Part shown: piece by piece, positions 1,848 to 30,706 of the stretch
Numbering within the stretch: the first letter of the stretch is position 1
Layout of the letters: each line of letters begins with the position of its first letter
Assembly: GCA_902362775.1 (NCBI GenBank)
Contig: CABIXV010000005.1
Coordinates: 34,079 to 98,078, forward strand
DNA: 64,000 nucleotides
Source: Clostridiales bacterium
GTDB lineage: Bacteria; Bacillota; Clostridia; Oscillospirales; Oscillospiraceae
Reading direction: 5' to 3'
Made by a program: the position numbers and the translations under genes
The notes under the pieces: generated by a model
The model's database searches: none
What the model was told of the DNA's origin: nothing
What the model saw: only the letters and a program-made list of their open reading frames with translations

Positions 1848-2741
1848 CTAATCAGAGAGCAGGGCGGCCATATCCCCTGGCATCGGGCGGGAGAAGGACA
1901 GAAGGCGGCCAGTCAGGGGGTGAAGGAAGGAGAGCTCCGCCGAATGAAGGGCCGGGCGAGAGATCAGCGTCCGGTCTTCCCTCCCATACAGGAAGTCCCC
2001 GGTAAGGGGGTGGCCGAGATAGGCCATGTGGACCCGAATCTGGTGGGTTCGGCCGGTATCCAGCTCCAGACGGAGGAGGGAGCGGCCACTGTGGGCGGAC
2101 AGCACTCGATAGCGCGTGCGGGCCGGCTTGCCGTCTGGGCGGACCATCTGCTTCACCAGAGACCCGTCCTTCGGCCCCAGAGGGGCGCTGATGAGGCCGG
2201 AGGGGGGCTCCGGCCTGCCTTCACAGACCGCCAGATAGGTCCGTCGGAATCCCTCTGTGTGGAGTTGGCGTTTCAGAATCTCCTGGGCATGAGGGTGTTT
2301 GGCCGCCACCAGCAGGCCGGAGGTGCCACGGTCCAGCCGATGGACCGGGTGAAAGTCCGCAGAATCTCCCTCCAAATCGTAATGCCAGAGTAAAAAATTA
2401 CCCAGAGTATCATTATAATGCCCCGGACCGGGATGGACGGGGACACCGGGGGCCTTATTCACTACTATCAGGTCTTCATCCTCGTAGACGAGGTCCAAGG
2501 GGCCGGGGGCCGGGACAATGCCGCTACGCCGCTCCAGGTCATCCAGCCGGACGGAGAGAAGCTGGCCCACCTGGGGGCGGGCATCAGTTTGAACCCGCTG
2601 TCCATCCAGAAGAATGCCGTCCGGCCACCACTTAATCCGGCGGACCACCGTGCCCGACAGACCCAGCCGCTTTTTTAAAATAGTGTCCACTTTGCTCCCC
2701 TCCAGCTCCGGGGAAATGGACAACTCCAACCGGCGGCTCAC
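1848..2741 (-). CDS. RluA-family 23S rRNA / tRNA pseudouridine synthase
   Basis: Converts uridine to pseudouridine in structured RNA. About 297 aa. The N-terminal ~60 residues look like the small S4-type RNA-binding domain of the RluD branch (a basic segment with KKRLGL), followed by the catalytic domain with HRLDRGTSG, whose Asp is the nucleophile, and the RTHQIRVH motif. I choose the GTG at 2741, whose first bases overlap the stop of the upstream membrane-protein gene (GTGA overlap); upstream reading would run through that gene. It is the last gene of a three-gene leftward operon headed by a small HTH regulator. Which uridine is modified cannot be told from sequence. Confidence 0.9.
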   Translation of the reverse strand: MSRRLELSISPELEGSKVDTILKKRLGLSGTVVRRIKWWPDGILLDGQRVQTDARPQVGQLLSVRLDDLERRSGIVPAPGPLDLVYEDEDLIVVNKAPGVPVHPGPGHYNDTLGNFLLWHYDLEGDSADFHPVHRLDRGTSGLLVAAKHPHAQEILKRQLHTEGFRRTYLAVCEGRPEPPSGLISAPLGPKDGSLVKQMVRPDGKPARTRYRVLSAHSGRSLLRLELDTGRTHQIRVHMAYLGHPLTGDFLYGREDRTLISRPALHSAELSFLHPLTGRLLSFSRPMPGDMAALLSD

Positions 2742-3163
2742 AGCTTTTTGGTCCAGCGGTTCACATTGACCATGTAGAACACACAGTGGAGGGTGATGAC
2801 GACCGCCACTAGAGCGGTGGGAAATCCGCTGCCCAGCACCAACGTAAGAAAAAATACCGCCCACAGAAGATATAACGTCCAGTACCAGCTGGAATAGGCC
2901 GCCTTTTCCCGGATGGATACGTTGCGTTCGTCACGCTCCGCTCGCTCAATCTCCTTCCGCTCCTCCGGGGTCCAGGTCCGGTCAAAGTGGGCCATGAGGA
3001 GCCGGCTGCCGGAGAGACCGCCCAAAGCTCCGGCCAGGCCAAAGCACAGCCCACTGATAGGGGCCGTGAGGCGGTCCCCCAAAATAACCGCCGCTACGCC
3101 AAGTCCAACGGCGATCCCCAGACCGATCCCAGGGAAAAAATTTTTTGGTGGAAATTTTTTCAT
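2738..3163 (-). CDS. Small integral membrane protein paired with HTH regulator
   Basis: 141 aa of no recognised function. Two hydrophobic segments near the N-terminus (about residues 10-27 and 32-50, glycine-rich), a charged cytoplasm-like middle (about 58-82, rich in Glu and Arg), and two hydrophobic segments at about 88-110 and 112-130 suggest four membrane spans. Its ATG overlaps the stop of the HTH gene (ATGA) and its stop overlaps the start of the pseudouridine synthase. Small HTH plus small membrane protein pairs of this shape are common in Firmicutes; the membrane protein may sense a signal for the regulator, but that is inference. Confidence 0.75.
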   Translation of the reverse strand: MKKFPPKNFFPGIGLGIAVGLGVAAVILGDRLTAPISGLCFGLAGALGGLSGSRLLMAHFDRTWTPEERKEIERAERDERNVSIREKAAYSSWYWTLYLLWAVFFLTLVLGSGFPTALVAVVITLHCVFYMVNVNRWTKKL

Positions 3164-3363
3164 GGCTCATCCTCCTCAAACAAAAAGACTTCCTCGATGG
3201 TCAACCCAAAGTATTTGGAAATGCGGTGGGCCAGGAGAAGCGAGGCATTGTACCGGCCGTTCTCCAGGGAAATAATGGTCTGACGGGTGACGTCCACCTC
3301 GTCCGCCAGCTCCGCCTGAGAGATACGGCGCTCCTTCCGAAGCTCCGCGATGCGATTGGTCAC
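3160..3363 (-). CDS. Small XRE/Cro-type helix-turn-helix regulator
   Basis: 67 aa, essentially one HTH_3 domain: the QAELADEVDVTRQTIISLEN stretch is a textbook Cro/CI helix-turn-helix. The start is GTG at 3363 with AAAGGAGG just upstream. It heads the leftward operon with the membrane protein and pseudouridine synthase and is divergent from the phage head-tail module starting at 3536. A near-perfect inverted repeat lies between its promoter and its ribosome site, so it is probably autoregulated; the intergenic position also lets it control the phage module. A typical DNA-binding-only regulator; its ligand or partner is unknown. Confidence 0.9.
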   Translation of the reverse strand: MTNRIAELRKERRISQAELADEVDVTRQTIISLENGRYNASLLLAHRISKYFGLTIEEVFLFEEDEP

Positions 3364-3535: not shown

Positions 3536-3829
3536 GTGGCAAAGAAAAAGCTCCCTGGGAGGGAGGATATTTTAGAACGGATGTGGAAGCTGGCTAACGC
3601 CAGGGTGGAGGACGCGGTACGGCTGGCCTGCTGGCCGGAGGAGGAGCCGGGGCGGCTGGAGAAGTTGGAGCTGGACGGGCTCACCGAATTTAAGCGGGGG
3701 GCGAATGGGGTCATTGAGCTGAAGTTTACCGACCGGGCCAGATTGCTGGAGCTGCTGCTGGACGCGGCGGAACACAGCGGTCAGGAACAGGTGGATCGGT
3801 TCCTCCAGGCTATGGAGGGGCAGGAGTGA
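3536..3829 (+). CDS. Phage terminase small subunit (XtmA position)
   Basis: About 97 aa from the GTG at 3536, chosen because GGAGGG sits at ideal distance; the frame is open 22 codons earlier without a ribosome site. The protein is charged and helical, with a conserved-looking DGLTEFKRG segment in the middle. Its position directly before, and overlapping (GTGA), the large terminase is the main evidence. The subunit would recognise DNA and start packaging. It is small for the family (often 120-180 aa) and lacks an obvious N-terminal HTH, which would fit loose sequence recognition. Role by context; sequence similarity itself is weak to my eye. Confidence 0.6.
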   Translation: MAKKKLPGREDILERMWKLANARVEDAVRLACWPEEEPGRLEKLELDGLTEFKRGANGVIELKFTDRARLLELLLDAAEHSGQEQVDRFLQAMEGQE

Positions 3830-5088
3830 GAGAGCTGGTATTTTCCCCAAAACAACGGCGGGTGCTGACCTGGTGGCGGCCAGGATCTCCGGACCGGGAC
3901 AGGCAAGCTATTCTTTGCGACGGGGCAGTACGAAGCGGCAAGACACTGTGTACTGGCCTGTCCTTTTTTTGCTGGGCCATGGTGTCCTTTCACCGGAAGA
4001 ACTTTGCCCTGTGTGGCAAGACCATCCAGTCCATAGGCCGCAATCTGCTGGAGGAACTGCTGCCTCTGCTGGATGATATGGGATTCCGGTGCGAGAAAAG
4101 GACGTCCAAAAACCTGCTCACCGTCCGACTGGGGGGACGGGTCAACACCTTTTATCTGTTTGGAGGGCGGGACGAGGGTTCAGCGGCTTTGATCCAGGGG
4201 GTTACGCTGGCGGGAGCCCTGCTAGATGAGGTGGCGCTCATGCCTCGGTCCTTTGTGGAGCAGGCTGTGGCCCGGTGCTCGGTGGCGGGCAGCAGACTGT
4301 GGTTCTCCTGCAACCCGGAGTCTCCAGCCCACTGGTTTTATCAGGAGTGGGTACGAAAGGCGGAGGAGAAGAAAGTCCTGCGCCTCCCTTTTTCTATGGA
4401 GGACAATCCTGGGCTGACCCCTGAGGTATGTGAGAGATACCGTACCATGTTTCAGGGGACCTTTTACCGGCGGTTCGTTCTGGGAGAGTGGGTAGCCGCC
4501 GAAGGGCTGGTCTACGACTTTCTGGACGAGAGCTTTTGGAAAGAGGCCCCGGAGAACGGATTGGAGCGGTGGCACATCTCTGTGGACTATGGTACGGCCA
4601 ACCCCACCTCCATGGGGTTGTGGGGACAGCGAGATGGAGTCTGGTATCGGGTAAAGGAGTATTACTACAACTCAAGAGAGGAACACCGGCAAAAGACCGA
4701 CGAGGAGTACGCCGACGACCTAGCGGCTCTGGCGGGTGGACGGTCCATCCAGGGAGTAGTGGTAGACCCGGCTGCGGCCAGCTTCCTGGAAACTCTGCGC
4801 CGCAGGGGATGGCGGGTGCTGCCGGCTGACAACCGGGTCCTATCAGGTATTCGTCTCACCGCCAGGCTGCTAAAGGCCGGAAAGCTGGTCGTCTGCGCGG
4901 GATGCACGGCCGCCATCCGGGAGTTTTCCCTTTACCACTGGGACCCGGACTGCCAGGGGCGGGACCAGGTAAAAAAGGAGCACGACCACGCTATGGACGA
5001 AATCCGGTATTTCGCTGCCACGGTAGCCGCCCGAGAGGAGAGCCGAGGCGGTCTCTACGCCGGAGTGGTAGAGCGGAGCGGGTTTTAA
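3826..5088 (+). CDS. Phage terminase large subunit, PBSX type (XtmB)
   Basis: DNA-packaging ATPase/nuclease, 420 aa, full length for the PBSX family. The Walker A loop GAVRSGKT is at residues 33-40, and Walker B (GALLDEVALM, with the catalytic Glu) lies near residue 130. The C-terminal half carries acidic residues in the places expected of an RNase H-like nuclease (SVDYGTANPTS, VVVDPAA, HDHAMDEIRY). It starts GTG overlapping the stop of the small subunit. All motifs are intact, so the motor looks functional even though the element lacks other phage modules. It should dock on the portal encoded next. Confidence 0.93.
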   Translation: MRELVFSPKQRRVLTWWRPGSPDRDRQAILCDGAVRSGKTLCTGLSFFCWAMVSFHRKNFALCGKTIQSIGRNLLEELLPLLDDMGFRCEKRTSKNLLTVRLGGRVNTFYLFGGRDEGSAALIQGVTLAGALLDEVALMPRSFVEQAVARCSVAGSRLWFSCNPESPAHWFYQEWVRKAEEKKVLRLPFSMEDNPGLTPEVCERYRTMFQGTFYRRFVLGEWVAAEGLVYDFLDESFWKEAPENGLERWHISVDYGTANPTSMGLWGQRDGVWYRVKEYYYNSREEHRQKTDEEYADDLAALAGGRSIQGVVVDPAAASFLETLRRRGWRVLPADNRVLSGIRLTARLLKAGKLVVCAGCTAAIREFSLYHWDPDCQGRDQVKKEHDHAMDEIRYFAATVAAREESRGGLYAGVVERSGF

Positions 5089-5185
5089 AGACATAGTTCT
5101 CCCTTATTTTTGCGGCGGGAGATCAGACCCTGATTACCAATAGAGGCTGGTACTCTCAGATAATCCATAGAAAGGAGCAAACAGC

Positions 5186-6325
5186 ATGAAATGGTGGGAA
5201 CGAAAGCGGCGGGAGCCTCCCGCCCCGGTGGTCCAGGTACGTCAGGGAAAGGGACAGCCCTTCGGGGCGCTGGACCGTTATGTGCCCCTGAGCTCCGGTG
5301 AGGTGGAGCTGTACCGGGCGATCCGGGAGGGGGTCCCCCTAGTGGACGCCGCCATCTGGAAGCTGGTACGGCTGTGTGGCGGGACGACTCCCCGGTGTGG
5401 AGACGGCAGGGCTCAGGCGGGTCTGGATCGCTTTTGGCGAACTGTGGACACGGGCTGGGGGCAGCGGGGCGTCCAATCCTTCTTGGACCGGTATCTGGAC
5501 GACCTGTTCACCTGCGGCCACGGTCTGGGGGAGATGGTGCTGTCCGGCGACGGCAGGGATATCGCTGCCCTGCTCTGTGCCGATCCAGAGCAGGTAGAGG
5601 CGCGGCTGGGGGACAGCCCCATGGACTTCCTCCTGTGCCGAAGAGAGGCGGGGGCAGTCCGGGAGCTGCCCTGGCAGGAGCTGCTCCTGTTTACACCATT
5701 CCAGCCCACAGGAGACGCCCCCTGCGGGGTATCCCTGCTGCGCTCCATGCCCTTTCTGGCAGGCATCCTGCTGAAGATTTTTCAGGCCACCGGCCAGAAC
5801 TGGGAGCGGGCAGGTAACCTCCGCTTTGCGGTGGTATGCAGGCCGGGCCAGGGCGAGGAGCCCTTTGCCCAGGAGCGGTGCGGCCAGATCGCCCAGGAGT
5901 GGTCCTCCGCCATGGCCGCCGGCCGGGAGGGTCAGGTGCGTGACTTTGTAGCGGTGGGGGACGTGGACATCAAGGTCATCGGGGCGGACAGTCCGGTGCT
6001 GGACAGCCAAGTACCCGTGCGGCAGATTCTGGAACAATTAGTGGCCCGGACAGGCATCCCGCCCTTCATGCTGGGCCTGTCCTGGTCGGCCACGGAGCGG
6101 ATGAGCGCCCAGCAGGCCGACCTGCTGACCAGTGAGATCACAGCCATCCGCCGGACGGTGGAGCCGGCCCTGCTCCGTGTGGCGGAGCTGTGGCTGCGGC
6201 TCCACGGCTTTGACGACCGGGTGGAGCTGGAGTGGGAGGACATCGACCTGCAGGATATGGTGGAAGAAGCTCGGGCCGAGCTGTACCGGGCCCAAGCGGA
6301 CAAGTTGAGGGAGGAAATGGCATGA
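5186..6325 (+). CDS. Phage portal protein (XkdE position)
   Basis: 379 aa. Forms the dodecameric ring at one vertex of the head through which DNA is pumped. Recognisable features are the KIFQATGQNWERAGNLRF helix region, the segment GIPPFMLGLSWSATERMSAQ followed by QADLLTSEI, and the acidic C-terminus, all typical of PBSX/SPP1-like portals. It starts at ATG 5186 after AAAGGAG, and follows a 97-base gap after the terminase, the largest gap in the head half of the module. The stop overlaps the protease start (ATGA). Confidence 0.9.
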   Translation: MKWWERKRREPPAPVVQVRQGKGQPFGALDRYVPLSSGEVELYRAIREGVPLVDAAIWKLVRLCGGTTPRCGDGRAQAGLDRFWRTVDTGWGQRGVQSFLDRYLDDLFTCGHGLGEMVLSGDGRDIAALLCADPEQVEARLGDSPMDFLLCRREAGAVRELPWQELLLFTPFQPTGDAPCGVSLLRSMPFLAGILLKIFQATGQNWERAGNLRFAVVCRPGQGEEPFAQERCGQIAQEWSSAMAAGREGQVRDFVAVGDVDIKVIGADSPVLDSQVPVRQILEQLVARTGIPPFMLGLSWSATERMSAQQADLLTSEITAIRRTVEPALLRVAELWLRLHGFDDRVELEWEDIDLQDMVEEARAELYRAQADKLREEMA

Positions 6326-7254
6326 AGATCATAAAAGAGAGCCAGGGGGGGCAGGAAACAGAGGTGAGTCCGGAGGACCTGGCCCTGATCAACCAGCTGG
6401 CCCGCAAAGAGCTGACGGCGGAGGAGGTGTACACCTTTTCCGTTCGACTGTGTGACGACCAGGTGGACCGGGACTTTGAGCGGTTTTCTCCACAGACTTT
6501 GGAGGAGCTGGCCGGGCTGTTTGTGGGCAAGAGCGGAATTTTTGACCACCAGTGGTCCGCCCGGGGGCAGTCGGCCCGGATCTATAAAACGGAGGTGATC
6601 CGGGAGCCGGAAAAAATCACCTTGGCCGGGGACGGTTACTGCTGGCTGAAGGGCTACGCCTACATGGTGCGGACCGAGAGCGGCCGGGACCTGATCGCGG
6701 AGATCGAAGGAGGGATCAAGCGGGAGGTCAGCGTGGGCTGCGCCGTGGAGCGGGCGGTGTGTTCCATCTGCGGCGGGGACCTGCGGACTGGGGACTGCGG
6801 CCACCGGAAGGGCCAGGAATACGGCGGAAGGCTTTGTTTCGCCAGTCTGGAAGGGGCGAGCGACGCCTATGAGTTTTCCTTCGTAGCGGTACCCGCCCAG
6901 CCCCTGGCCGGGGTGATCAAAGGGGCGGGGCGGCATACCAGCCTGAAGGAGCTGGTCCGTCAGGCCCCCGGCTGTGCCCTGGAGCTGGAACGGCTGGAGG
7001 AGGAGGCCGAAACAGGTCGGCGTTATCTCTCCCGGCTACGGGAGGAGGTAGTCCGGCTTGGCATGCTAGCCCAGATAGGACTGGACCGGGACACCTTAAA
7101 AGGTGTGGCGGCCAAGCTGTCCTGGGAGGAGTTGCTGGCGATGGAAGATGGCTGCCGTCGCCGGGCGGCGGAGCGGTATCCGCTGCTCCCCCAGCTCCAA
7201 TATCAGCAGGACCAGGCCCCGGAGCGGGACAGGGACAGGGCGTTTTTGATCTGA
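6322..7254 (+). CDS. Capsid maturation protease / XkdF-like scaffold protein
   Basis: 310 aa from ATG 6322 (ATGA overlap with portal); the open frame upstream of this has no support. N-terminal half: an HK97-protease-like arrangement with His in GIFDHQWSARG (about residue 76) and Ser in KREVSVGCAVE (about 137-143). A treble-clef-like Cys/His cluster follows (CSICGGD..CGHRKG). Then the FSFVAVPAQPLAGV motif often seen in phage prohead proteases. The C-terminal ~90 residues are coiled-coil-like and charged, as in a scaffold. Function inferred from motifs and position between portal and capsid. The zinc-binding insertion is a family variant in clostridial elements. Confidence 0.75.
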   Translation: MKIIKESQGGQETEVSPEDLALINQLARKELTAEEVYTFSVRLCDDQVDRDFERFSPQTLEELAGLFVGKSGIFDHQWSARGQSARIYKTEVIREPEKITLAGDGYCWLKGYAYMVRTESGRDLIAEIEGGIKREVSVGCAVERAVCSICGGDLRTGDCGHRKGQEYGGRLCFASLEGASDAYEFSFVAVPAQPLAGVIKGAGRHTSLKELVRQAPGCALELERLEEEAETGRRYLSRLREEVVRLGMLAQIGLDRDTLKGVAAKLSWEELLAMEDGCRRRAAERYPLLPQLQYQQDQAPERDRDRAFLI

Positions 7255-7304
7255 GGACAGCGGCGGGGGATCTGCCCTGCCCTGCCAAATAAACAGAGGA
7301 GGAC

Positions 7305-7697
7305 ATGAGGATGAGCAAATTTTCCTTTGAAGAGATGGGAGCGGTGACGGTCAGCTTTGCCGCCGACACCGGCGTGAAGGGCGGCCAGGTGGTCAAGGTG
7401 ACATAGGATGGCACAGTTGGTCCCTGCGCGGATGGGGACGCCTTCTGCGGCGTGGCTCTGGAGCCCAGAAATGGGGCGGCGGCCGTCCAGGTGAAGGGCT
7501 TTACAAAAGTGTCCCGCACTGGGCAGCTGAACCTGGGCTGGGTGGAGCTGGCGGCGGACGGGCAGGGAGGCGTAAAGGCGGCCGAAGCCCCTTCGGTGAC
7601 TGTGGAAAGCGGAGCGGTCACACTGCCCTCCCCCGCCGGGGTCAGGGCCCTGGTGGTCAGCACGGCAGAGGACGGCACTGCTGTCCTCTGCCTGTAA
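7305..7697 (+). pseudogene. Head decoration / capsid-stabilising protein, split by an in-frame TAG
   Basis: A reading frame of about 130 codons with a good ribosome site (GAGGAGG) runs from ATG 7305/7311 to TAA 7697 and is interrupted only by one TAG at 7404-7406. Before it: MSKFSFEEMGAVTVSF and onwards; after it the same frame continues with DGTVGPCADGDAFCGVAL. One C-to-T change from CAG (Gln) explains the stop. The small beta-rich protein between protease and capsid is where decoration proteins sit. Either a nonsense mutation, a sequence error, or suppressed. Neighbouring module genes use TAG as a true stop (11397, 16550), so genetic recoding is unlikely. Confidence 0.75.
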
Positions 7698-7718
7698 TTT
7701 GGAAAGGAGCGTGTGAGC

Positions 7719-8732
7719 ATGGCGTTTTGTTACGATAATCTGAAGCTGGACAAGGGGATGTATCAGGAGGCGGGCAGTACCTTCACCCAGGTGCTAGAGC
7801 GCCAGGATCCCAGCGACCAGTACAAGGGAACCAGCCTGGAGGGGCTGGACGCTTTCCAGCGGCAGCTCAAGCGGTTTGATATCCGGGTAAAGGGAGCTGG
7901 CAGCGACGTAGTGGAAAAGTTTTTCCGAACCGCCGATTCCGCCGTCCTCTTTCCAGAGTACATCGCCCGGGCGGTCCGGCAGGGTATGGAGGAGAGCGAC
8001 ATTCTCCCCCACATCACTGCCGCTGTGACCCGTTTTGACGGCATGGACTACCGCTCCATCACCGCCGAGGCGGGAGGGGACAGTAAGGAGCTGCGCCACG
8101 TGGAGGAGGGCGCCTCCATCCCCGCCACCACAGTGCAGGTCCAGTCCAACCTGGTCCGGCTCCACAAGAGAGGACGGATGCTGGTAGCCAGCTATGAGGC
8201 GGTGCGCTATCAAAAGCTGGACCTGTTCTCGGTCACTCTGCGTCAGATGGGGGCCCACATCGCCCGGACACTGTTGGCCGACGGCGTGGAAGTGCTTATC
8301 CATGGGGACGGCAACGACAATGGGGCCGAGGCGGACCAGGTTAAGTCAACCGGCACTCTGACGTATGAGGACCTGGTGGACTTCTGGGCCAAATTTGACC
8401 CCTATGAGATGAACGCCCTGTTAGTGTCCGGGGATGTTATGGTCAAGCTGCTCAAGCTGACGGAGTTCCAGAACCCCCTTACCGGCCTGAATTTCCAGGG
8501 GACGGGCAAGCTGACCACCCCCCTGGGCGCCCAGCTGCTGCGTACCTCGGTCCTGCCTAGCGGCACCGCTATCGGGCTGGACAAGCGATTTGCCCTGGAG
8601 ATGGTCCAGGGGAGCGACGTAATGGTGGAGTATGACAAGCTTATCGACCGGCAGCTAGAGCGGGCCGCCATCACCACGATCTGCGGCTTCGCCAAGATCT
8701 TCCAGGGAGCCAGCCGGGTACTGGAGGTGTGA
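7719..8732 (+). CDS. Major capsid protein, HK97 fold (XkdG)
   Basis: 337 aa from ATG 7719 (AAAGGAG at good spacing; an in-frame GTG six bases earlier is too close to it). Composition and features fit XkdG-type capsid: N-arm region, SDILPHITAAVTRFDGMDYR (E-loop and P-domain area), the A-domain stretch TTPLGAQLLRTSVLPSGTA, and a C-terminal QLERAAITTICGFAKIF strand. Forms the icosahedral head shell. No truncation. Sits in canonical order after protease and decoration genes. Confidence 0.9.
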   Translation: MAFCYDNLKLDKGMYQEAGSTFTQVLERQDPSDQYKGTSLEGLDAFQRQLKRFDIRVKGAGSDVVEKFFRTADSAVLFPEYIARAVRQGMEESDILPHITAAVTRFDGMDYRSITAEAGGDSKELRHVEEGASIPATTVQVQSNLVRLHKRGRMLVASYEAVRYQKLDLFSVTLRQMGAHIARTLLADGVEVLIHGDGNDNGAEADQVKSTGTLTYEDLVDFWAKFDPYEMNALLVSGDVMVKLLKLTEFQNPLTGLNFQGTGKLTTPLGAQLLRTSVLPSGTAIGLDKRFALEMVQGSDVMVEYDKLIDRQLERAAITTICGFAKIFQGASRVLEV

Positions 8733-8733
8733 C

Positions 8734-9084
8734 ATGACGGAGGAGATCATGGCTCTGTGCCGAGCCATGGGAGCCACCGAGGACCAGGAGGGGCTGTTGC
8801 TCCCCTTGGCTCAGGCCAGCGCGCAGGCTTTGGAGCGGCGGCTGAAGCCGGGGACCTCCCCCGGCTTGTGTGGTCCCGCCTTCCCTCTGGCTGCCGCCAT
8901 GCTGGCGATGGATGGGCTGGAGCGGGCCGTGGGAAGCGGCCGAGTGTCCTCCTTCACCGCCGGAGAAGTGTCCATCCGTATGGGGGGAACGGCCGGAGAG
9001 GGCGGCCTGACCGCTACGGCGGAACGGCTGCTGGCCCCCTGGCTGGGAGAGACCGGCTTTGCCTTTCGGGGGGTGCGGGGATGA
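8734..9084 (+). CDS. Head-tail connector (XkdH position)
   Basis: 116 aa, starting one base after the capsid stop. Mostly helical, with a long Leu/Ala-rich helix at about residues 20-70 and a C-terminal tail; this matches gp6/gp15-type adaptors that dock under the portal. Direct similarity is weak; the call is mainly from position in the Xkd order. It overlaps the next gene by ATGA. Confidence 0.65.
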   Translation: MTEEIMALCRAMGATEDQEGLLLPLAQASAQALERRLKPGTSPGLCGPAFPLAAAMLAMDGLERAVGSGRVSSFTAGEVSIRMGGTAGEGGLTATAERLLAPWLGETGFAFRGVRG

Positions 9085-9401
9085 TGGAGCGGGAGTGGCG
9101 CTCCCTTCTGGCCATGTACGGCCAGGAGGTGACGCTGCGCTTGGAAGGAATGGAGGACCGGCCTCTGCGGGCTTTCCTCCAGCCAGTGCTGGACCGGGAG
9201 AGGGAGCAACGCCTCCCTTCTCCCCTGGGCCAGCGTCCGGAGGACCGGTATCTATATCTAGGACCTGCCGACATCCCGCTGGAGGCAGGGCGGAGCCAAG
9301 TGGAGTGGAAGGACCGGGCCTTTGAGGTGCAGTCGGCCCATCTGGTGGGGGACAGCCACTGGTGGGCCCTGCTGCGGCCCAGGGACAGGGAGGCAACATG
9401 A
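9081..9401 (+). CDS. Head closure / minor structural protein (XkdI position)
   Basis: 106 aa from ATG 9081, beta-rich and charged (EREWRSLLAMYGQEVTL at the start). Fits head-closure or minor capsid proteins that plug the connector. It overlaps both neighbours by four bases. Function by synteny only. Confidence 0.6.
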   Translation: MMEREWRSLLAMYGQEVTLRLEGMEDRPLRAFLQPVLDREREQRLPSPLGQRPEDRYLYLGPADIPLEAGRSQVEWKDRAFEVQSAHLVGDSHWWALLRPRDREAT

Positions 9402-9901
9402 GCGGAGGACTGGAAAACATCCGGGAACAGATGGTGGATTACCTGAAAGAGCGGGGAGTTCAGGCGTTCGCCGCCTGGCCCGCTGGGGAGCGCCCAGTTC
9501 AAGAAGGAGCACTGGTCGTGGTGTCCCTCCGGGGATGTCAGGCCGGTCCCGCCGGCTTTCAGCACTACCTGGGAGAGCGGTATGACGAGAGGACCGGCCT
9601 GTGGCAGGAGCTGTACGGCCGAAAGGCTGCCCTGACATTTGGACTGGACTTGTACGCCCCTCGGGGACAGGGGGATGTTGGCATTCAGACGGCCTTTGAC
9701 CAGGTGGTCCAGGCTTTCGCACAGGGCGCTCCCCAGGGGCTGGCCGTTCAGGAGGTGGCCTGCGGAGAGACAGTCTACGACGGCCAGGCCAAGCGGATGA
9801 AGCGGCCCGCCCAGGTGGTATGCCAGGCCTATCTCTACGCCGCGGCCCAGCCCGGAGGGCTCTTTACCGACTTTGAACTGAGAGGTGGAATCAAACCATG
9901 A
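9398..9901 (+). CDS. Tail terminator / tail completion protein (XkdJ position)
   Basis: 167 aa from ATG 9398 (ATGA overlap). Contains LENIREQMVDYLKERGVQAF, the start typical of tail-terminator proteins, then a mixed alpha/beta body. Such proteins cap the finished tail and join it to the head. Precedes the sheath gene as expected for contractile-tailed elements. Confidence 0.65.
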   Translation: MSGGLENIREQMVDYLKERGVQAFAAWPAGERPVQEGALVVVSLRGCQAGPAGFQHYLGERYDERTGLWQELYGRKAALTFGLDLYAPRGQGDVGIQTAFDQVVQAFAQGAPQGLAVQEVACGETVYDGQAKRMKRPAQVVCQAYLYAAAQPGGLFTDFELRGGIKP

Positions 9902-10956
9902 GCATAACAGTACATGAGCGTCCGGGGGTCTACTCCTCCTACGATGCCTCATCCCTGGTCAGCGGCCGGGGAAGCGGACGGCTGGTGGGACTGGCGGCAG
10001 TCAATACCGTAGCCGCTCCCGGAGAGACGCATATTATCACCAGCTATGACAGGGCGGTGGCCGCCTTTGGCTCGGAAGGGGCGGAGGGCATGGCGGAGCT
10101 GATTCGGCTAGCCCTGAAAAACGGAGCCTCCGGTGTGGCCGCTGTGGCGACAGCGGACGAGGCGGGCTATAAGGCCGCCTTCGCGCAGCTGTCAGAGGTG
10201 GAGGATATCGCCGTAGTCCTCTGTGACAGCACCGACACAGAGATACAGAAGCTGCTGCTGGACAGCGTGAAAGCGGCCTCGGCGGACCGCCGGGAGCGCC
10301 TTGCCCTGTTGTCTGGAGCCAAGGGGGAGAGTGTGGACGACCTGATCGACCGAGCAAAGGGACTGAACTCGGAGCGGGCGGTCCTGGTGGCCCCAGGTGG
10401 ATTGGACCAGGAGGGAGAGGACATTTCCGGGCTGACCGTGGCGGCGGCGGTGGCTGGAGCCCTGGCGGGGGAATCGGATCCGGCAGTCCCTCTGGGCGGA
10501 GCGGAACTGCTTGGACTGTACGGCCTGGAGGGCCGCTATGGAGAAAAGGACCTGGACCGGCTTATCCTGGGGGGCGTTACCCCGGTAGAGCAGGTAGGCG
10601 GCACAGTCAGCGTGGTACGGGGTGTGACCACCCGGACTGCCACTGGGGCTGCGGCGGACCCCACCTGGCGGGACCTGGCCACCATTCGGGTGGTGGACGA
10701 CGTAATCCCATCCCTGCGCCAAGCGCTGGCGGCCAAGTTTCGAAGAGCCAAAAACACACCCCAGAGCCGCGGCGCGATCCGAGCCCAGGTAGTGCTGGAG
10801 TTGGAGCAAAAGCTGTCCAGGGAGATTATCACTGGCTATGAGGATGTGGCGGTGAGCGCTGACCCTGAGGAGCCCACCCGATGCCTAGTGGACTTCTCCT
10901 TTACAGTGGCCCACGGTCTCAACCAGATTTGGCTGACCGCCCACATCACGGTATAA
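9898..10956 (+). CDS. Contractile tail sheath protein (XkdK)
   Basis: 352 aa. The N-terminus MSITVHERPGVYSSYDAS and the C-terminal domain containing TWRDLATIRVVDDVIPSLRQ and a VDFSFTVAHGLNQIWLTAHI end strand match phage sheath proteins of the PBSX/Mu class. Sheath subunits polymerise around the tube and contract to drive it through an envelope. Full length and intact; shows the particle, if made, is a myophage-type injector. Confidence 0.92.
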   Translation: MSITVHERPGVYSSYDASSLVSGRGSGRLVGLAAVNTVAAPGETHIITSYDRAVAAFGSEGAEGMAELIRLALKNGASGVAAVATADEAGYKAAFAQLSEVEDIAVVLCDSTDTEIQKLLLDSVKAASADRRERLALLSGAKGESVDDLIDRAKGLNSERAVLVAPGGLDQEGEDISGLTVAAAVAGALAGESDPAVPLGGAELLGLYGLEGRYGEKDLDRLILGGVTPVEQVGGTVSVVRGVTTRTATGAAADPTWRDLATIRVVDDVIPSLRQALAAKFRRAKNTPQSRGAIRAQVVLELEQKLSREIITGYEDVAVSADPEEPTRCLVDFSFTVAHGLNQIWLTAHITV

Positions 10957-11007
10957 TGGCCCCGCTGAAAAAAGACTGGGGCACAAGAGCGAGAAGGGGG
11001 TATTGAT

Positions 11008-11397
11008 ATGAGTATCGCTGGCTTTCCCACCAGCAGTGACATCTATCTGGAAGTGGATGGCACCCGGGTTGCGGTAGTCCAGAGCTACACCGCACGGGCT
11101 ACCAAATCCAGCACCGCCGTGGAGGCCTTTGGGGAATCGGAGCCGGTGGCCACCGTCCCCGGACAAGCCACCCACGTGGTGGAGCTGACTCGGCTGTACG
11201 CCACGGATGAGGCCGTCCGGGACGGCATTGACTTTTACAAGCTGTCCGGTTTCTCCCTGGTGATCTGTAAGCCGGATAAAAAAATCATCTACTCCGACTG
11301 CCAGTGGAGCGCCATTCAGGAGAGCGCCACTCTAGGCTCCATGGTGTTGGAGAAGGTAACCCTGGTAGCCTCCCGGCGCATCGAAACGGGGGTATAG
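11008..11397 (+). CDS. Tail tube (core) protein (XkdM)
   Basis: 129 aa, ATG 11008 with GAAGGGGG upstream. Beta-rich with ATKSSTAVEAFGESEPVATV and a C-terminal LGSMVLEKVTLVASRR segment typical of XkdM tube proteins; these stack as hexamers inside the sheath. Ends with TAG. The next start is GTG 11400. Confidence 0.85.
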   Translation: MSIAGFPTSSDIYLEVDGTRVAVVQSYTARATKSSTAVEAFGESEPVATVPGQATHVVELTRLYATDEAVRDGIDFYKLSGFSLVICKPDKKIIYSDCQWSAIQESATLGSMVLEKVTLVASRRIETGV

Positions 11398-11399
11398 GG

Positions 11400-11783
11400 G
11401 TGGACAGTTCTATTTTGGCACGGCAGGACCGCGTCCACCTAGATAACGGAATGGATTTGCGGCTATTGTCCGCTCTGGAGGTGCTCCAGGCCAGACGGGA
11501 GGCCGGGGAGCTGGCCTGTGAGGACCGGGAGCGGGCCCTGTGCTCCAACGCCTGCCTGCTGGCCAGGGCCCTGGAGCGGACAGAGAACCACACCCCCGTC
11601 TTTCCAGATGGGCAGAGCGTGTTGGCCGGACTGACGGTGGAGGAAATTGGGGCGCTGGCCGCCCGGTGGGCCCAGCTGCGCCGCCGATCCGATCCTGGAC
11701 TGGATGTGAGCCAAACGGAGTTGGAGGAACTAAAAAAAAACTTCGCGGGGCCCCCGCTGAACGGCTCCGATGGCGGGTGCTGA
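11400..11783 (+). CDS. Tail assembly chaperone, short form (XkdN-like)
   Basis: 127 aa from GTG 11400, two bases after the tube stop. Helical protein with SALEVLQARREAGELACEDR and LTVEEIGALAARWAQLRRR, the pattern of XkdN chaperones that coat the tape measure during assembly. Fourteen codons before its stop is a run of nine A with an A-AAA-AAC heptamer in the right phase, and the -1 frame is open for another 96 codons. The gene therefore makes a short form and, by -1 slippage, a long form, as lambda G/GT do. Confidence 0.85.
   Translation: MDSSILARQDRVHLDNGMDLRLLSALEVLQARREAGELACEDRERALCSNACLLARALERTENHTPVFPDGQSVLAGLTVEEIGALAARWAQLRRRSDPGLDVSQTELEELKKNFAGPPLNGSDGGC
11735..11741 (+). other. 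Programmed -1 ribosomal frameshift site
   Basis: The heptamer A-AAA-AAC (11735-11741) is in the correct phase relative to the GTG-11400 frame (codons CTA AAA AAA AAC), inside an A9 run. A GC-rich inverted stretch (GCGGGGCCCCCGC, 11745-11757) follows at about the distance of a stimulatory stem. The -1 frame continues to TGA 12031. Confidence 0.8.
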
Positions 11784-12031
11784 AGGAATTTCACGCCCTG
11801 CCCACCGAGGAGCGGGCCAGGGAGATGAAGGGAAGGGACTATCTCTGGTGCCTAGTCCATACTCTGCTGGACCGGGAGGATGAGCTGGAGCGTTTTTGCC
11901 CAGAGTGCAGGAGCCGGGGAGCGGAGGAGCGCTGCCCTGTGTGCGGCCGGCCGGCCTCCAGTTGGGCGGAGGGGAGCGTAAACATCTCCTTTGACATGGA
12001 GAAATTTGAACAGGGAGCTGGGAAGCCATGA
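11741..12031 (+). CDS. C-terminal extension of the tail chaperone, made by -1 frameshift; zinc ribbon
   Basis: Read in the -1 frame after the slip, 96 residues are added, giving a fused protein of about 210 aa. The extension has a helical part (ALPTEERAREMKGRDYLWCL) and two CxxC pairs (CPECRS..CPVCGRP) forming a probable zinc ribbon. No convincing independent start with a ribosome site exists at the beginning of this frame. Its stop overlaps the next start (ATGA). By analogy with lambda GT, the long form would link the tape-measure/chaperone complex to tube subunits. Confidence 0.75.
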   Translation, partial: LRGAPAERLRWRVLKEFHALPTEERAREMKGRDYLWCLVHTLLDREDELERFCPECRSRGAEERCPVCGRPASSWAEGSVNISFDMEKFEQGAGKP

Positions 12032-12594
12032 CCGACTATTTGGAAGAAGGGCCCGGCCAAGGGGAGGCGCTGCTCCAAGCGCTGGAGGCGATGGTCCTGT
12101 GGATCCCGGTCCCGGACGGCCGGACGGCGGAGGCGGATGGGGGCACCTCCCTCCCTGCCACGGATCTTTGTATACAGGGCAGTTTCGTTTCCCCGGCGGA
12201 TCGGCGGGAGCTGGGCCAGGAAGGTACCCCAGGGGCTTCCACCGGGGCGGAGGCCCCGCTCATCAGAGGGGGAAGGGAGGATGGGGAGGAAGCCCTCCCG
12301 CTGCTCTCCGTCCTCCTGGAGCGGGAACGGGCAGCGGCGGCCCTGAATGAAATCAGAACCGCCCAGGAGGCTTCCGGTATGCGCCGGTCCGGAGGAGGCC
12401 TAGAAGCTGGGCCTATCCCGCTCCACAGGCCATTTTCCCAAGTTGGCGGGCTGGGAATGGGCCCAGACAGCCGAAGACCGGAGCCGGACTGGGCGAGAGA
12501 GGCGGAGAGTTCCTCCGGGCCGTCCATTCGGCAGATGGACCAGGCCTTTCGCCGGGACAGCCGCCGCTATGACGGGGGCTTTTTCCTCTATTGA
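12028..12594 (+). CDS. Unrecognised 188-aa protein in the tape-measure slot
   Basis: Sits exactly where xkdO (tape measure, over 1000 aa in PBSX) should be, between the frameshifted chaperone and the LysM tail protein, but is only 188 aa. N-terminal helix (YLEEGPGQGEALLQALEAMV), a middle helix with LLSVLLERERAAAALNEIRT, long Gly/Pro/Ser-rich linkers, and a basic-aromatic end (FRRDSRRYDGGFFLY). No transmembrane segment or repeats of a classic tape measure. At roughly 0.15 nm per residue it would specify a tail of about 30 nm if it acts as a ruler. It may instead be a minor tail protein, with the tape measure deleted. Confidence 0.6.
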   Translation: MTDYLEEGPGQGEALLQALEAMVLWIPVPDGRTAEADGGTSLPATDLCIQGSFVSPADRRELGQEGTPGASTGAEAPLIRGGREDGEEALPLLSVLLERERAAAALNEIRTAQEASGMRRSGGGLEAGPIPLHRPFSQVGGLGMGPDSRRPEPDWAREAESSSGPSIRQMDQAFRRDSRRYDGGFFLY

Positions 12595-12635
12595 GCGGGC
12601 AGTCAGGCCCGCCGCCACAGAAGGAGGTATGCAGA

Positions 12636-13208
12636 ATGGACCTGTCACCCATGCGTTACAAGAGCTACACCTGGCCCCACAACCCCAGGGTGTACTCCAT
12701 CGACTATGAGAGAAAGATGGCCGTTCACAAGACACCCTTCGGCCTGTTCCGCCTCCAGGACCTGGGGCGGACCAACCGGATCATGGAGGGGGAGGGGGAA
12801 TTTGTGGGTCCGGACGCATACAGCCAGTTTGGGCAGTTGGCCAATATGTTCTACAACGGCGGTCCGGGACTGCTGATCCACCCGCTGTGGCAGGCGGCCA
12901 ACGCCTATTTCGTGTCTTTGCGGCTGGAACAAGAGCCCCGGCCTGACTTTGTGCGCTATTCTTTCACCTTTTGGGAGGACGACAGTTGGTACACCGGCCT
13001 GGCGGTCCGGCAGAACCAGGGCGGAGCGGGCGGCCAGACCGCCCAGGAGTGGGAGCCGTCCGCCGTCTACCACCGGGTGGTGTCGGGGGACACCCTGTGG
13101 GCGCTGGCGGGACAGTACGGCCTGTCCCTGGACGAGCTGGTAGCCCTCAATCCCCAGATCAAAAACCCGAATCTTATCCGGGTGGGCGAGGAGGTTCGAG
13201 TGCGGTGA
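12636..13208 (+). CDS. LysM-domain tail/baseplate protein (XkdP)
   Basis: 190 aa from ATG 12636, chosen for AAGGAGG eight bases upstream. The N-terminal ~130 residues match the XkdP fold that binds the tail tube end (SYTWPHNPRVYSIDYERK, GPDAYSQFGQLANMFYN). After a linker comes one LysM domain (about 145-190: VSGDTLWALAGQYGLSLDEL) that binds peptidoglycan glycan or acts as a structural module. Overlaps the next gene by GTGA. Confidence 0.88.
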   Translation: MDLSPMRYKSYTWPHNPRVYSIDYERKMAVHKTPFGLFRLQDLGRTNRIMEGEGEFVGPDAYSQFGQLANMFYNGGPGLLIHPLWQAANAYFVSLRLEQEPRPDFVRYSFTFWEDDSWYTGLAVRQNQGGAGGQTAQEWEPSAVYHRVVSGDTLWALAGQYGLSLDELVALNPQIKNPNLIRVGEEVRVR

Positions 13209-14155
13209 GAGGCTATGTGACAGACTGGCGGGGCAGGGAGTGGCTGCTGCCCTATCCCACTCAGTGGGAGCTGGAGTATACTGCCGGGGTGCCCTGTGAC
13301 AGCTTTACTTTTCGCTGTCCTTGGGAGATGGGGGGAGAGACCGCCCCTGGAGACTGGGTCCGCTTTTCCGCCCGGTACCAGGGAAAAGATATGTTCAACG
13401 GAGTGGTGGACGAGTGCCAGGTCACGCTGGACCAGGGAGGCTGCCAGCTGGAGATCAGCGGCCGGGGGCTGGCGGCCCTGCTGCTGGACAACGAGGCCAT
13501 TGGGCAGGACTACGGCACCGCCACCCTGGCGGACATCCTCCGGGACCATGTGACGCCCTACGGCATCCAGACCGCTCCAGGGGCGGCGCTGCCCGCTGTA
13601 ACCCGCTTCTCCGTGGCCACAGGAAGCAGTGAGTGGTCGGTGGTCTATGATTTCGCCCGCTATTACGGCGGCGTATGTCCCCGGTTTGACCGCCTGGGCC
13701 GTCTGGTCCTGTCTGGCTGGCAGGACAGCCAGGAGCGGCTCGTAGAGGATGGAACTCCGGTAACCACTCTGGTCCGCCGGGACCGGCGGTATGGGGTTCT
13801 ATCCCGAGTGCTGGTCCGGGACCGGTGGTCCGGGGCGGTACAGCGGGTGGATAACGGGGATTTTCTGTCCCAGGGAGGCAGTGCTCGGAGAGTGCTGACT
13901 ATGCCAGGCCGGAGCAACTATAAAACGATGCGGTACAACGGCCAGTTTCAGCTGGACCGGTCCGCCTCGGAACAGGAGCGGGTGGAACTGACCATCGCCC
14001 AGCCCTTCTGCGCCTGGCCTGGAGACCTGGTCTCCATCCGGCGGAGCAAGTGGGACTGGAACGGGCGATACCGGGTACTCCAGTCTGCCACAGGGATGGG
14101 TATGGAGGGTGCATGGACCAGGCTGGAACTGGCGCTCCCGGATTTTGTGGTCTGA
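13205..14155 (+). CDS. Tail hub / late-control-like protein (XkdQ)
   Basis: 316 aa from GTG 13205 overlapping the previous stop. Contains the hub-type segment SARYQGKDMFNGVVDECQV, then RGLAALLLDNEAIGQDYG and ATLADILRDHVTPYGIQT, typical of XkdQ/gpD proteins that form the trimeric hub under the tube. Intact. Confidence 0.82.
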   Translation: MRGYVTDWRGREWLLPYPTQWELEYTAGVPCDSFTFRCPWEMGGETAPGDWVRFSARYQGKDMFNGVVDECQVTLDQGGCQLEISGRGLAALLLDNEAIGQDYGTATLADILRDHVTPYGIQTAPGAALPAVTRFSVATGSSEWSVVYDFARYYGGVCPRFDRLGRLVLSGWQDSQERLVEDGTPVTTLVRRDRRYGVLSRVLVRDRWSGAVQRVDNGDFLSQGGSARRVLTMPGRSNYKTMRYNGQFQLDRSASEQERVELTIAQPFCAWPGDLVSIRRSKWDWNGRYRVLQSATGMGMEGAWTRLELALPDFVV

Positions 14156-14166
14156 GGTGATGGAAT

Positions 14167-14553
14167 ATGTGGACATCGGAGCGAGGCCGCCTGCCCCAGA
14201 GCCAGGAGCCGGCGGCAGAGGTAGGCGTAGTCACGCTGGGAGGAGATCCTGCCGCCGTGGAGTTAGGGGGAGAGCGGCGGTGGCTGCCGGTCTGCGCCCC
14301 AGGCGGCTATTCCTGGCAGCCCGGCGCCGGGGACAAGGTGCTGGTACTCAAGGCGGGCGTGGAACGGGAGAGCCCCTATATCCTGGGAAAGATCCAGGAG
14401 AATGTTGAGGAGGCGGGACCGATCCGTCTGTTCGGCCCAGGCAGCGCCCTTGGGCTGGACCAGGGCAGAGTGGAGCTGGAGGGGACGGTCTATCTCAACG
14501 GCCAGACTCTGGAGGCATATATCCAAAAAATTGTGGCCGAGATGCTGGGGTGA
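14167..14553 (+). CDS. Baseplate spike / gpV-like protein (XkdR position)
   Basis: 128 aa from ATG 14167, with GAGGTGA just upstream. OB-fold-like beta segment with CAPGGYSWQPGAGDKVLVLK near the middle and a C-terminal part with GRVELEGTVYLNGQTLE, as in phage baseplate assembly protein V and its relatives. It would be part of the puncturing tip. Weak similarity; position supports it. Confidence 0.65.
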   Translation: MWTSERGRLPQSQEPAAEVGVVTLGGDPAAVELGGERRWLPVCAPGGYSWQPGAGDKVLVLKAGVERESPYILGKIQENVEEAGPIRLFGPGSALGLDQGRVELEGTVYLNGQTLEAYIQKIVAEMLG

Positions 14554-14563
14554 GGAGGAAGAT

Positions 14564-14938
14564 ATGGAACGAAAGCTGATTGAGGGGGACTATGTGCCCG
14601 ACGGGGCGGGAGGACTGACCACCCTCACCGGCAGCGAGGAGGTACTGGCCCGGGCGTTGTACAGGCTCACCGCCCGGCGGGGCGGGCTGCCCTTTCTGCC
14701 TGAGCTGGGCAGCCGGCTCTACCAGGTGCCGCGGGAGAAGCCATCGGTCCGGCAGTCCTTGGCTGCCCGGTATGTGGCCCAGGCCTTAGAAGGAGAGCGG
14801 GAATTGAAGGTCAAAGACGTAGCCCTGGCACAGACAGGAGACAGAGCGGAGCTTCGGGTACAATTGGAATGGCAGGGTCAGCCGCTCTCCCTGGACCTGG
14901 AGCTGTCCCCCCGTGAAGCGGTGGAGGTGACATGGTGA
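14564..14938 (+). CDS. Baseplate wedge protein, gp25/GPW-like (XkdS)
   Basis: 124 aa from ATG 14564 after GAGGAGGA. Contains LARALYRLTARRGGLPFLPE and LGSRLYQVPREKPS, the signature of gp25-like wedge proteins, and a beta C-terminus. Frame upstream of 14564 belongs to a shadow of the previous gene. The stop overlaps the baseplate J start. Confidence 0.82.
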   Translation: MERKLIEGDYVPDGAGGLTTLTGSEEVLARALYRLTARRGGLPFLPELGSRLYQVPREKPSVRQSLAARYVAQALEGERELKVKDVALAQTGDRAELRVQLEWQGQPLSLDLELSPREAVEVTW

Positions 14939-15990
14939 AGACTGTGGAGGAGATCTATCAGGAGATGCTCTCCGCCTATGGAGAGAAGACAGGGGTGGCC
15001 CCGGCAGAGGGGTGTGATTTGTCCGCCCGCCTGTATGCCTGCGCCGCTCAGGTCTTTTCCCTTTATGTCCAGGCTGGCTGGGTGGCACGGCAGGCTTTTC
15101 CCCAGACGGCGGAGGGGGAGTATCTGGACCGCCACGCCCAGCTCCGGGGGCTGGAGCGGAAGGAGCCGGTGGCGGCGCGGGGCGTAGTCCGTTTTTCTGG
15201 CGAAATTTCAGAGAATACGGACCGGCCCATTCCAGCGGGGACGGTCTGTATGACAGCCGGCCTGATCCGCTTTGAAACGATCGAGGATGGTCTGCTAGCC
15301 GCTGGACAGGCCCACGTGGATGTCCCGGTCCAGGCTCTGGTCCCCGGCATTTCTGGGAATGTGGCAGCAGGAACCATCCTGTCCATGGCGGTAGCGCCCG
15401 CTGGAATATCCGCCTGCTCCAACCCGTCGCCCTGCCAAGGGGGAGTGGACCGGGAGGGGGATGAGCAGCTGCGTCAGCGGGTGCTGGATACCTTCCAGCG
15501 GCTGCCCAACGGGGCCAACGCCGCCTTTTATCAGCAGGGGGCCCTGTCCTTTGACCCGGTGGCGGCGGCAGTGATAGTACCCAAGCCCAGGGGAACAGGG
15601 ACGCTGGATGTGGTGGTGGCCACCCACCAGGGGCTTCCAGACCGGGACCTGTTGGATGAACTGGCCAAGTATTTTCAGCACCGCCGAGAGATCGCTGTGG
15701 AGGTCCAGGTGCGGGCGCCCCAGACACAGGCTGTCCAGGTGGCCGTCCAGGTGGCGCCCCACTCCGAATACCGGGCGGAGCAGGTGTTGGAGGAAGTAGA
15801 AGATGCGGTCCGGGGCTGGTTTACCGGACAGCGCCTGGGGCATGATGTATTGCTGGCCCAGTTGGGCAGCCTGATCTACGGCTGTGATGGCGTGGCAAAC
15901 TACGCCATCCTCTCCCCCACCACTGACGTGGAGGTGGAGCAGGATGTGCTGCCCGTTCTGGATACCCTAACTGTGGAGGAGATGCCATGA
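14932..15990 (+). CDS. Baseplate J-like protein (XkdT)
   Basis: 352 aa. N-terminal helices with GEYLDRHAQLRGLERKEPVA, the central beta region with PIPAGTVCMTAG and QALVPGISGNVAAGTI, and the later helix PNGANAAFYQQGAL are all hallmarks of the baseplate J family, the main wedge of contractile injection machines. Full length. Overlaps both neighbours. Confidence 0.92.
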   Translation: MVKTVEEIYQEMLSAYGEKTGVAPAEGCDLSARLYACAAQVFSLYVQAGWVARQAFPQTAEGEYLDRHAQLRGLERKEPVAARGVVRFSGEISENTDRPIPAGTVCMTAGLIRFETIEDGLLAAGQAHVDVPVQALVPGISGNVAAGTILSMAVAPAGISACSNPSPCQGGVDREGDEQLRQRVLDTFQRLPNGANAAFYQQGALSFDPVAAAVIVPKPRGTGTLDVVVATHQGLPDRDLLDELAKYFQHRREIAVEVQVRAPQTQAVQVAVQVAPHSEYRAEQVLEEVEDAVRGWFTGQRLGHDVLLAQLGSLIYGCDGVANYAILSPTTDVEVEQDVLPVLDTLTVEEMP

Positions 15991-16550
15991 GCCACAGCCA
16001 ATACCTCCGAGATCTGCTGCGTCCCCTGGGAATCTATGACCTAGAGGCACCCTTCAACGGCGGTGAGCTGGATGCCCAGGGGGAGGCTCTGGACAGGGCT
16101 ATGGCCGCCCTGGAGGAGATCCAGCGGGAGAGCAGCCTGACCACGGCAGAGAGCTGGGGACTGGAACAGGTGGCCCGGCTGTTTCTCCGGCGGCCAGTAG
16201 CCACCCAGCCCCGCCCGTTGGCAGATGCCTTGGCTGCACTGCTGCGCATCGGCGGGGACAGCTTTACCCTCGAGGCAATCAACGACACCATCCTGGGCTG
16301 CGGCATCCCCGCCAAAGTGGAGGAGCTGGGGGCCGCCGCGGTGGCGGTGTCCTTCCCCGGAGTGGCGGGAGAGCCCCCTGGCTTCGGGGAGCTGAAGCGG
16401 ATCATTGAGGACATCCTTCCCCCTCACCTAGATATTCAGTACCACTTCTGGTATTTAACCTGGGCGGAGTTGGAGGATAAGTTCTCCTGTTGGCGGGATA
16501 TCGAGGACCGGGACCTGACCTGGTCTGGTCTGGAGACTTGTGTAATATAG
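15987..16550 (+). CDS. Baseplate wedge / tail protein (XkdU, DUF2313)
   Basis: 187 aa. Contains SHSQYLRDLLRPLGIYDL at the start, then SWGLEQVARLFLRRPVA and GEPPGFGELKRIIEDILPPH. This matches XkdU-type proteins, which follow gpJ in PBSX and Mu. It is the last gene of the module: no fibre, holin or endolysin follows, and its stop is inside the shared terminator hairpin. Confidence 0.85.
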   Translation: MSHSQYLRDLLRPLGIYDLEAPFNGGELDAQGEALDRAMAALEEIQRESSLTTAESWGLEQVARLFLRRPVATQPRPLADALAALLRIGGDSFTLEAINDTILGCGIPAKVEELGAAAVAVSFPGVAGEPPGFGELKRIIEDILPPHLDIQYHFWYLTWAELEDKFSCWRDIEDRDLTWSGLETCVI

Positions 16551-16590
16551 AAAAGGGGCCCAACTCCTGGGAGTTGGGCCCCTTTTCTAT
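16547..16590. terminator. Two-way terminator closing the phage module
   Basis: A perfect 21-base inverted repeat (arms 16547-16567 and 16570-16590) whose arm ends are A/T runs on both strands. It ends the rightward phage module and the leftward dehydrogenase gene. Its stem contains the last phage stop codon. Confidence 0.9.
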
Positions 16591-29215: not shown

Positions 29216-29452
29216 ATGGGGGAGAAAAATTTTGATCCGCAGAAGCGTGTGGACAAGCGGCAGAGGCAATAAAATCCAAAATTTACCATTCCAGGCTCCT
29301 TTCGCCCGCCTTCGACACATCTTGCCGTCTCTATGCGCTATGGTAATAAGTGAACAGCCAGAAAAAAATACCGCAGTTTCTCTCTGTATAGAAAAGTTTC
29401 TCTCTCCATATCCTGACCTTACCGACAAATGAAGGATCAGGAGGAACCTTTT

Positions 29453-30598: not shown

Positions 30599-30677
30599 AC
30601 CAGGCCGGGCTTATTTGCCCGACCCTACATAGCGCGAGAATATTGAAAGAAAATGGGAGGCTTTACCTCTATTTTAC

Positions 30678-30706
30678 TTGACGTGGCACCACCGCCGTTG
30701 TATAAT
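30678..30706 (+). promoter_or_regulatory. Promoter of the glycogen operon
   Basis: TTGACG (30678-30683), 17 bases, TATAAT (30701-30706). A leader of about 80 bases separates it from glgB. Confidence 0.85.

Follow-up and report, generated by a model that had tools for sequence, protein, structure and literature searches.

Does a phage-like gene module without an integrase represent a prophage in decay, or a particle that its bacterial host has kept for its own use? This question is raised by a stretch of 64,000 nucleotides from an Oscillospiraceae genome (Clostridiales bacterium, contig CABIXV010000005.1), hereafter called the window. Its plus strand carries at 3536-16550 a compact 13-kb terminase-portal-capsid-contractile tail-baseplate operon, i.e. 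a single run of genes for packaging, head, contractile tail and baseplate according to Pfam and PHROGs, which is closed by a bidirectional hairpin. Judged from sequence, it is probably a particle operon that Oscillospiraceae have domesticated and inherit vertically, and in all likelihood a contractile-tailed gene transfer agent (GTA). We base this on one copy in nearly every carrier genome, the host-congruent phylogeny, a neighbourhood shared in part of the family, purifying selection, the lack of an integrase match, a truncated small terminase subunit (TerS) and a short protein in the tape-measure slot. Domestication is well supported, and GTA function is the most likely use of the module as predicted from its genes. 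Across the family it is neither an ordinary prophage nor one in decay. The initial annotation of this DNA had already suggested a domesticated particle, and trees congruent with RpoB, low ratios of non-synonymous to synonymous substitution rates (dN/dS) and a neighbourhood shared in part of the family now support that view.

Two traits of gene transfer agents appear in the gene content. The first is found in TerS (3536-3829, 97 aa), which lacks the N-terminal part of Terminase_2 and aligns to profile positions 64-128 of 141 only, with a score against PF03592 of 16.7 bits, under the curated cut-off of 26.1. Among eight TerS sequences tested, those of the window and of genome G005 matched at 63/64-128, below the cut-off, five (G007, G234, L261, L263, L071) matched from position 1-7 on, and that of G121 gave no Terminase_2 match. 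The missing N-terminal half is presumably the usual DNA-binding part. The second trait is a 188-aa protein (12028-12594) in the tape-measure slot, assigned by slot length and an RDxRR[YF] motif in its C-terminus, FRRDSRRYDGGFFLY; neither Pfam nor PHROGs gave a match for this protein. A tape-measure gene of normal size was not found in the module, an absence that the initial annotation had not listed. Of the 85 loci in which TerL, sheath and baseplate J were all matched, 84 also had both tube and LysM matches, and in these 84 loci the space between tube and LysM suffices for short open reading frames (ORFs) only. An ORF with RDxRR[YF] at most 16 residues from its C-terminus was detected in 91 of 93 slot loci (three exact duplicate pairs included), in 70 of them as RDxRR[YF]DxGF, the two loci without such an ORF being L071 and L072. 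Measured between stop codons, these ORFs span 140-297 codons with a median of 204, and their bodies are dissimilar, so that the window copy finds few relatives. A phage with a 31% identical portal, MACPNOA1, carries an annotated tape-measure coding sequence of 4314 bp.

The distribution of the module was analysed with a portal profile. It matched 130 of 300 genomes drawn from the host family (the family of G003), 129 of them with one hit; G147 has two portal pieces on one contig. In this draw, portals with internal stops occur in G015 and G042 and fragments in G068, G091 and G202. Within one genus 55 of 61 genomes have the portal, three with two hits (G322 and G343 resemble split contigs, G350 carries one complete copy plus a fragment), and in a second genus 44 of 61 have it. 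The order-level draw gave 43 of 295 genomes with one hit each. Genome completeness was not reported for these draws, and some absences may be gaps. As control, 13 of these 61 genomes of the first genus scored above the cut-off of an HK97 portal model, and at E<=0.001 the model hit 33 of 61, many through the same weak local match; the two models are not strictly comparable, the HK97 model being curated and the test profile being built from the family's own members.

Vertical inheritance, which the initial annotation had named as a mark of domestication, is supported by comparison with the host phylogeny. RpoB ORFs were chosen via RpoB motifs, whereby G059 dropped out. For TerL and portal combined, the trees of 29 genomes agreed with RpoB (Mantel 0.870, 0 of 2000 permutations), sharing 17 of 26 splits and recovering 14 of the 18 well-supported RpoB splits, with no conflict at a support of 0.95 or more. 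Baseplate J alone gave a Mantel value of 0.877 in 24 genomes, also with no conflicts. Taking the longest ORF as RpoB gave a Mantel value of 0.21 and 37 strong conflicts; this comparison was discarded, since for many genomes the rule had selected antisense ORFs.

Conservation of the chromosomal site, the other part of that proposal, holds for a part of the family. In nine of 35 fetched genomes dacA and the glycogen operon adjoin terS, and HADH and/or RecG lie downstream in ten of the 35 as well as in the window. These downstream genes follow the module directly in G010, G164 and G040 (in G040 RecG only) and lie 0.6-9 kb further away in the other seven; both flanks together were found only in G010, G164 and G040. 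Other clades hold different neighbourhoods, with upstream and downstream neighbours varying between clades. The HADH gene ends 43 bp after the last gene of the module in the window and lies within 43-80 bp of the module end in the window, G010 and G164.

Purifying selection on the module is indicated by dN/dS values well below 1, as the initial annotation had expected of a domesticated system. All values were calculated by NG86 on draft and metagenome sequences. Before the close-pair and per-gene counts, L021, L006, L033 and L038 were removed, as they duplicate L098, L081, L113 and L125 exactly. The window and locus L001 (99.3% identical) differ by 61.5 synonymous and 27.5 non-synonymous differences, giving a dN/dS of 0.150; 5.5 and 8.5 of these counts, respectively, come from the adaptor gene, which is frameshifted in L001 and has only two real mismatches. 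For 43 non-independent pairs with dS below 0.5 the median was 0.21 (range 0.078-0.67); saturated pairs with higher dN/dS exist in a longer pair list and were not used. Pooled per gene, all 18 genes analysed, which do not include the decoration gene and the slot protein, stayed below 0.45, from 0.14 for the capsid through 0.16 for the tube, 0.18 for TerL and 0.19 for the portal to 0.44 for the gene at the chaperone position.

Several findings weigh against the reading as a domesticated gene transfer agent. No portal match was obtained in 170 of the 300 family genomes. Sequence comparison indicates that the TerS truncation is not family-wide, since Oscillibacter-side relatives retain the N-terminus; by eye, the longer TerS is kept in five such genomes (G007, G008, G148, G197 and G234). 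In the ORFs searched, the module of the window lacks a holin, fibre or receptor-binding match. In six of the nine genomes with the dacA flank, neither HADH nor RecG was found in the fetched downstream sequence, of limited length in some of them, so that there the site is conserved on one side only. Single-gene trees showed strong conflicts with RpoB, four for the portal (Mantel 0.830) and three for TerL (0.757). These few conflicts, the neighbours that differ between clades and the homologues that turn up as short contigs in virus collections would suit the structural genes of an active phage or satellite, one that keeps entering chromosomes anew and comes to shared sites by target preference. 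We regard this as the most improbable of the explanations considered: the combined tree follows RpoB, nearly every carrier genome has one copy, no integrase match was obtained in the module, and no repeat resembling an attachment site was seen among those shown.

An intact module-free site, which the initial annotation had looked to as evidence against domestication, is present in two of the 61 genus members, and 55 of the 61 carry the portal. In these two, G340 and G335, distances of 201 and 250 bp separate the HADH and dacA matches, and no part of the module was matched in this interval at E below 0.01. The other four of the six genus members without portal are arranged differently around RecG. 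In the RecG tree, G335 and G340 group with the carriers G040 and G010 (split support 0.96), their closest placement being unsupported (0.10). Because this RecG group also holds carriers, loss of the module is the simpler reading of the two empty sites, the alternative being that these genomes never had it.

Private lesions and shortened genes add to the points against domestication. Both copies seen of the window species carry a lesion of their own, namely an in-frame TAG (7404-7406) in the decoration gene of the window and a 1-bp indel at window position 8982 that frameshifts the adaptor gene of L001; either sequencing errors or early decay may account for them. In some relatives ORFs are shortened, including TerL in six of 153 loci, the sheath in L125/L038 (one contig) and a few others. 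Most internal stops sit at alignment ends, interior ones being those in the capsid gene of L065, baseplate J of L154 and the chaperone-position gene of L093. The two lesions, the minority of shortened ORFs, the missing integrase and the two genus members without module could be taken together as signs of a decaying prophage remnant. This is very unlikely in our view, given that the same gene set is found, mostly open, in 85 loci, that dN/dS is well below 1 and that the trees are congruent with RpoB. The TAG, which the initial annotation had read as an argument for decay, is no feature of the family: L001 does not have it, nor do the other loci listed, as far as they align.

If the module is domesticated, it may serve gene transfer or killing, and comparison with known systems bears on this choice. 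The genes of PBSX of Bacillus subtilis run from packaging and head through the contractile tail to the baseplate. PBSX also has a control region that responds to DNA damage, lysis and fibre genes linked to the operon, and a tape measure of full length. The module follows the same gene order, as the initial annotation had stated. Unlike PBSX, it showed none of the control region, the linked lysis and fibre genes or the full-length tape measure, so that the tape measure, fibre and lysis genes expected within an operon of PBSX type are missing from the window module. A domesticated PBSX-like killer particle, which would package host DNA and act as a bacteriocin with no gene delivery, is an unlikely explanation. 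The PBSX-like gene order, the contractile tail and the lack of a linked fibre are in its favour, and a bacteriocin would account just as well for vertical inheritance and selection. Against it, capsid, TerL and portal belong to the genes under the strongest constraint, and a pure tail bacteriocin would not need them; moreover, the LexA-like box GAACN4GTTC does not occur in the window (one exact pattern, chance expectation 0.7). Both observations are compatible with a killer that packages DNA.

The GTA reading draws on RcGTA of Rhodobacter capsulatus. RcGTA is not known to carry an integrase, nor its tail a sheath, unlike the window module, which has a sheath gene. According to PMC7296036 and PMC7947584, RcGTA is a head-tail cluster with a TerS without specific DNA-binding domain and a short tape measure, all of which the module resembles. 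Its tape measure is described there (PMC7296036) as consisting of a helix of 113 residues, a part with strands and loops of 83 residues and a second helix of 20 residues, and the 188-aa slot protein is of this size. Compared at the level of sequence, portal, capsid, tube and sheath of the module had no PDB chain match at the limits used, the presence of RcGTA chains in the set searched being assumed. Closer to the host, PMC12946183 reports GTA-like packaging in Ruminococcaceae and Oscillospiraceae, with three of 25 GTA events in Onthomonas; no operon is identified there in the Onthomonas metagenome-assembled genome (MAG), and among the MAGs searched in that study the one strong candidate operon is said to be in a MAG of F. 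prausnitzii. FpGTA I was present in all twelve Faecalibacterium genomes examined there. Like FpGTA I/II from Faecalibacterium, a gut genus of the same order, the module is a short stand-alone operon with a TerS without obvious DNA-binding domain (PMC12946183). The paper regards FpGTA as probably podovirus-like and places its baseplate, fibre and lysis genes in another, second operon (PMC12946183); unlike it, and compared by description only, the window module has sheath and baseplate in one operon. In the literature searched, with subscription papers and preprints outside its scope, we found no paper describing this particle family.

As a gene transfer agent, the module could work as follows. 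TerL with the truncated TerS would package host DNA without sequence choice, and a short-tailed contractile particle would assemble. Release would occur through a holin, which some relatives encode beside the module and others presumably at another locus, and the baseplate would deliver the DNA to kin. A search of 18 genomes with one holin model gave matches in ten, directly after the module only in G061 and G065, and revealed no constant lysis locus. The matches beside the module are located at C7:1967698 in G061 and C1:710438 in G065. In G005, G009 and G170 an ORF of 153-158 aa after gpI resembles, by eye, a carbohydrate-binding tail tip. The module family is a candidate source of the GTA-like packaging reported for gut Oscillospiraceae in PMC12946183. 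It is widespread and inherited, nearly always as a single copy, and its carriers include named isolates such as Oscillibacter valericigenes Sjm18-20 and Pseudoflavonifractor phocaeensis An858, so that the idea of these bacteria sharing chromosomal DNA via domesticated particles becomes directly testable.

A related module was found in six divergent carriers of another host group (G487, G557, G585, G610, G536 and G576; L307-L324). LysM lies about 0.75-1.5 kb after their capsid gene (LysM match in five of six), and no sheath match was obtained in the module of any of the six, with a weak tube match in G585. Three of them (G487, G557, G585) have five downstream flanking genes in common, with best identities of 70-85%. 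Named relatives of two divergent portals include Caproiciproducens, Caproicibacter, Thermocaproicibacter, Acutalibacter and Scatolibacter among the best 120 of ~7,900 matches each. We tentatively propose, with slightly more doubt than confidence, an order-wide GTA lineage that predates the split between the host family and the Caproiciproducens-Acutalibacter group, comprises a contractile branch and one with no sheath detected and little space for it, and lost the DNA-binding half of TerS within the contractile one. If true, the packaging events reported in Oscillospiraceae would find their missing genes in this lineage.

The other genes of the module, all on the plus strand, were identified by searches of Pfam and PHROGs, except that position alone gave the names of several genes for neck, tube and chaperone; these searches confirmed the packaging, head and contractile-tail genes in the order first claimed. 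TerL (3826-5088, 420 aa) matched phrog_2 (E 6.6e-47) and PDB 5oe8, 'Large subunit terminase' (E 1.5e-128), and the motifs GAVRSGKT, LLDE, VDYG, VVDPA and HAMDEIRY were located in it. It is followed by the portal (5186-6325; phrog_30703, E 8.3e-152), which public records (P0023, P0164 and others) label 'serine/threonine protein phosphatase', apparently a misannotation. The protein at the prohead-protease position (6322-7254) belongs to phrog_16951, a family without assigned function (E 1e-123), and the decoration-type protein (7305-7697), which contains the TAG, matched phrog_4588 (E 9e-5) in its second part. The head is completed by the major capsid protein (7719-8732; Phage_capsid_4, E 1e-16; phrog_3922, E 5e-106), the head-tail adaptor (8734-9084; phrog_442, E 4e-4) and a neck protein (9081-9401) with no family match, named from its position, which is the same in relatives.

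The tail genes begin at the tail-terminator position (9398-9901; phrog_25177, without assigned function, E 2.6e-35), followed by the contractile sheath (9898-10956; Phage_sheath_1 and 1C, phrog_279) and, by position, the tail tube (11008-11397; phrog_27038, without assigned function, E 1.6e-61). Starts were located for the ORF at the tail assembly chaperone position (11400-11783, no family match) and for the zinc-ribbon ORF that overlaps it (11777-12031), which gave a sub-threshold DZR match on a longer reading frame. Behind the slot protein lie a LysM baseplate hub (12636-13208; LysM, E 1.9e-12; phrog_184), whose LysM also scores against endolysin families, a gp44-like hub (13205-14155; phrog_177, E 2.9e-34), an OB-domain spike (14167-14553; phrog_25991, E 2.5e-17; Phage_base_V sub-threshold), a gp25-like wedge (14564-14938; phrog_975, E 1.4e-4), baseplate J (14932-15990; PF04865, E 2e-53) and, as last gene, a gpI-like tail protein (15987-16550; phrog_521, E 1.3e-11). 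Integrase, holin and fibre families had no match among the module ORFs searched in Pfam and PHROGs, in agreement with the absence of integrase, lysis and fibre genes noted before, and no linked integrase or replication genes were found in the module and selected flank genes.

The module ends at a hairpin (16548-16590) with a 19-bp stem (-35.7 kcal/mol), which forms a bidirectional terminator common to the module and HADH, as had been claimed for a terminator shared with a host gene; a simple terminator scanner gave only a weak site there. The 20 repeat families shown of 39 include no direct repeats joining both module ends, consistent with the earlier failure to see attachment sites, and the 64-kb window contains no tRNA. 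The flanks consist of host genes, PGM and RluA on the left and HADH, RecG and MutY on the right. Left of the module (2738-3363) lie a regulator of the XRE type and a probable membrane protein of 141 aa, both named by eye; the regulator was rejected as a repressor of the module because the pair travels with RluA in relatives. The dacA gene and glycogen operon, which adjoin the module in the nine relatives, are situated in the window at 29429-39421, 12.9 kb downstream of the module, and PGM and RluA occupy the place of dacA in those relatives; a local rearrangement has therefore probably taken place in the window.

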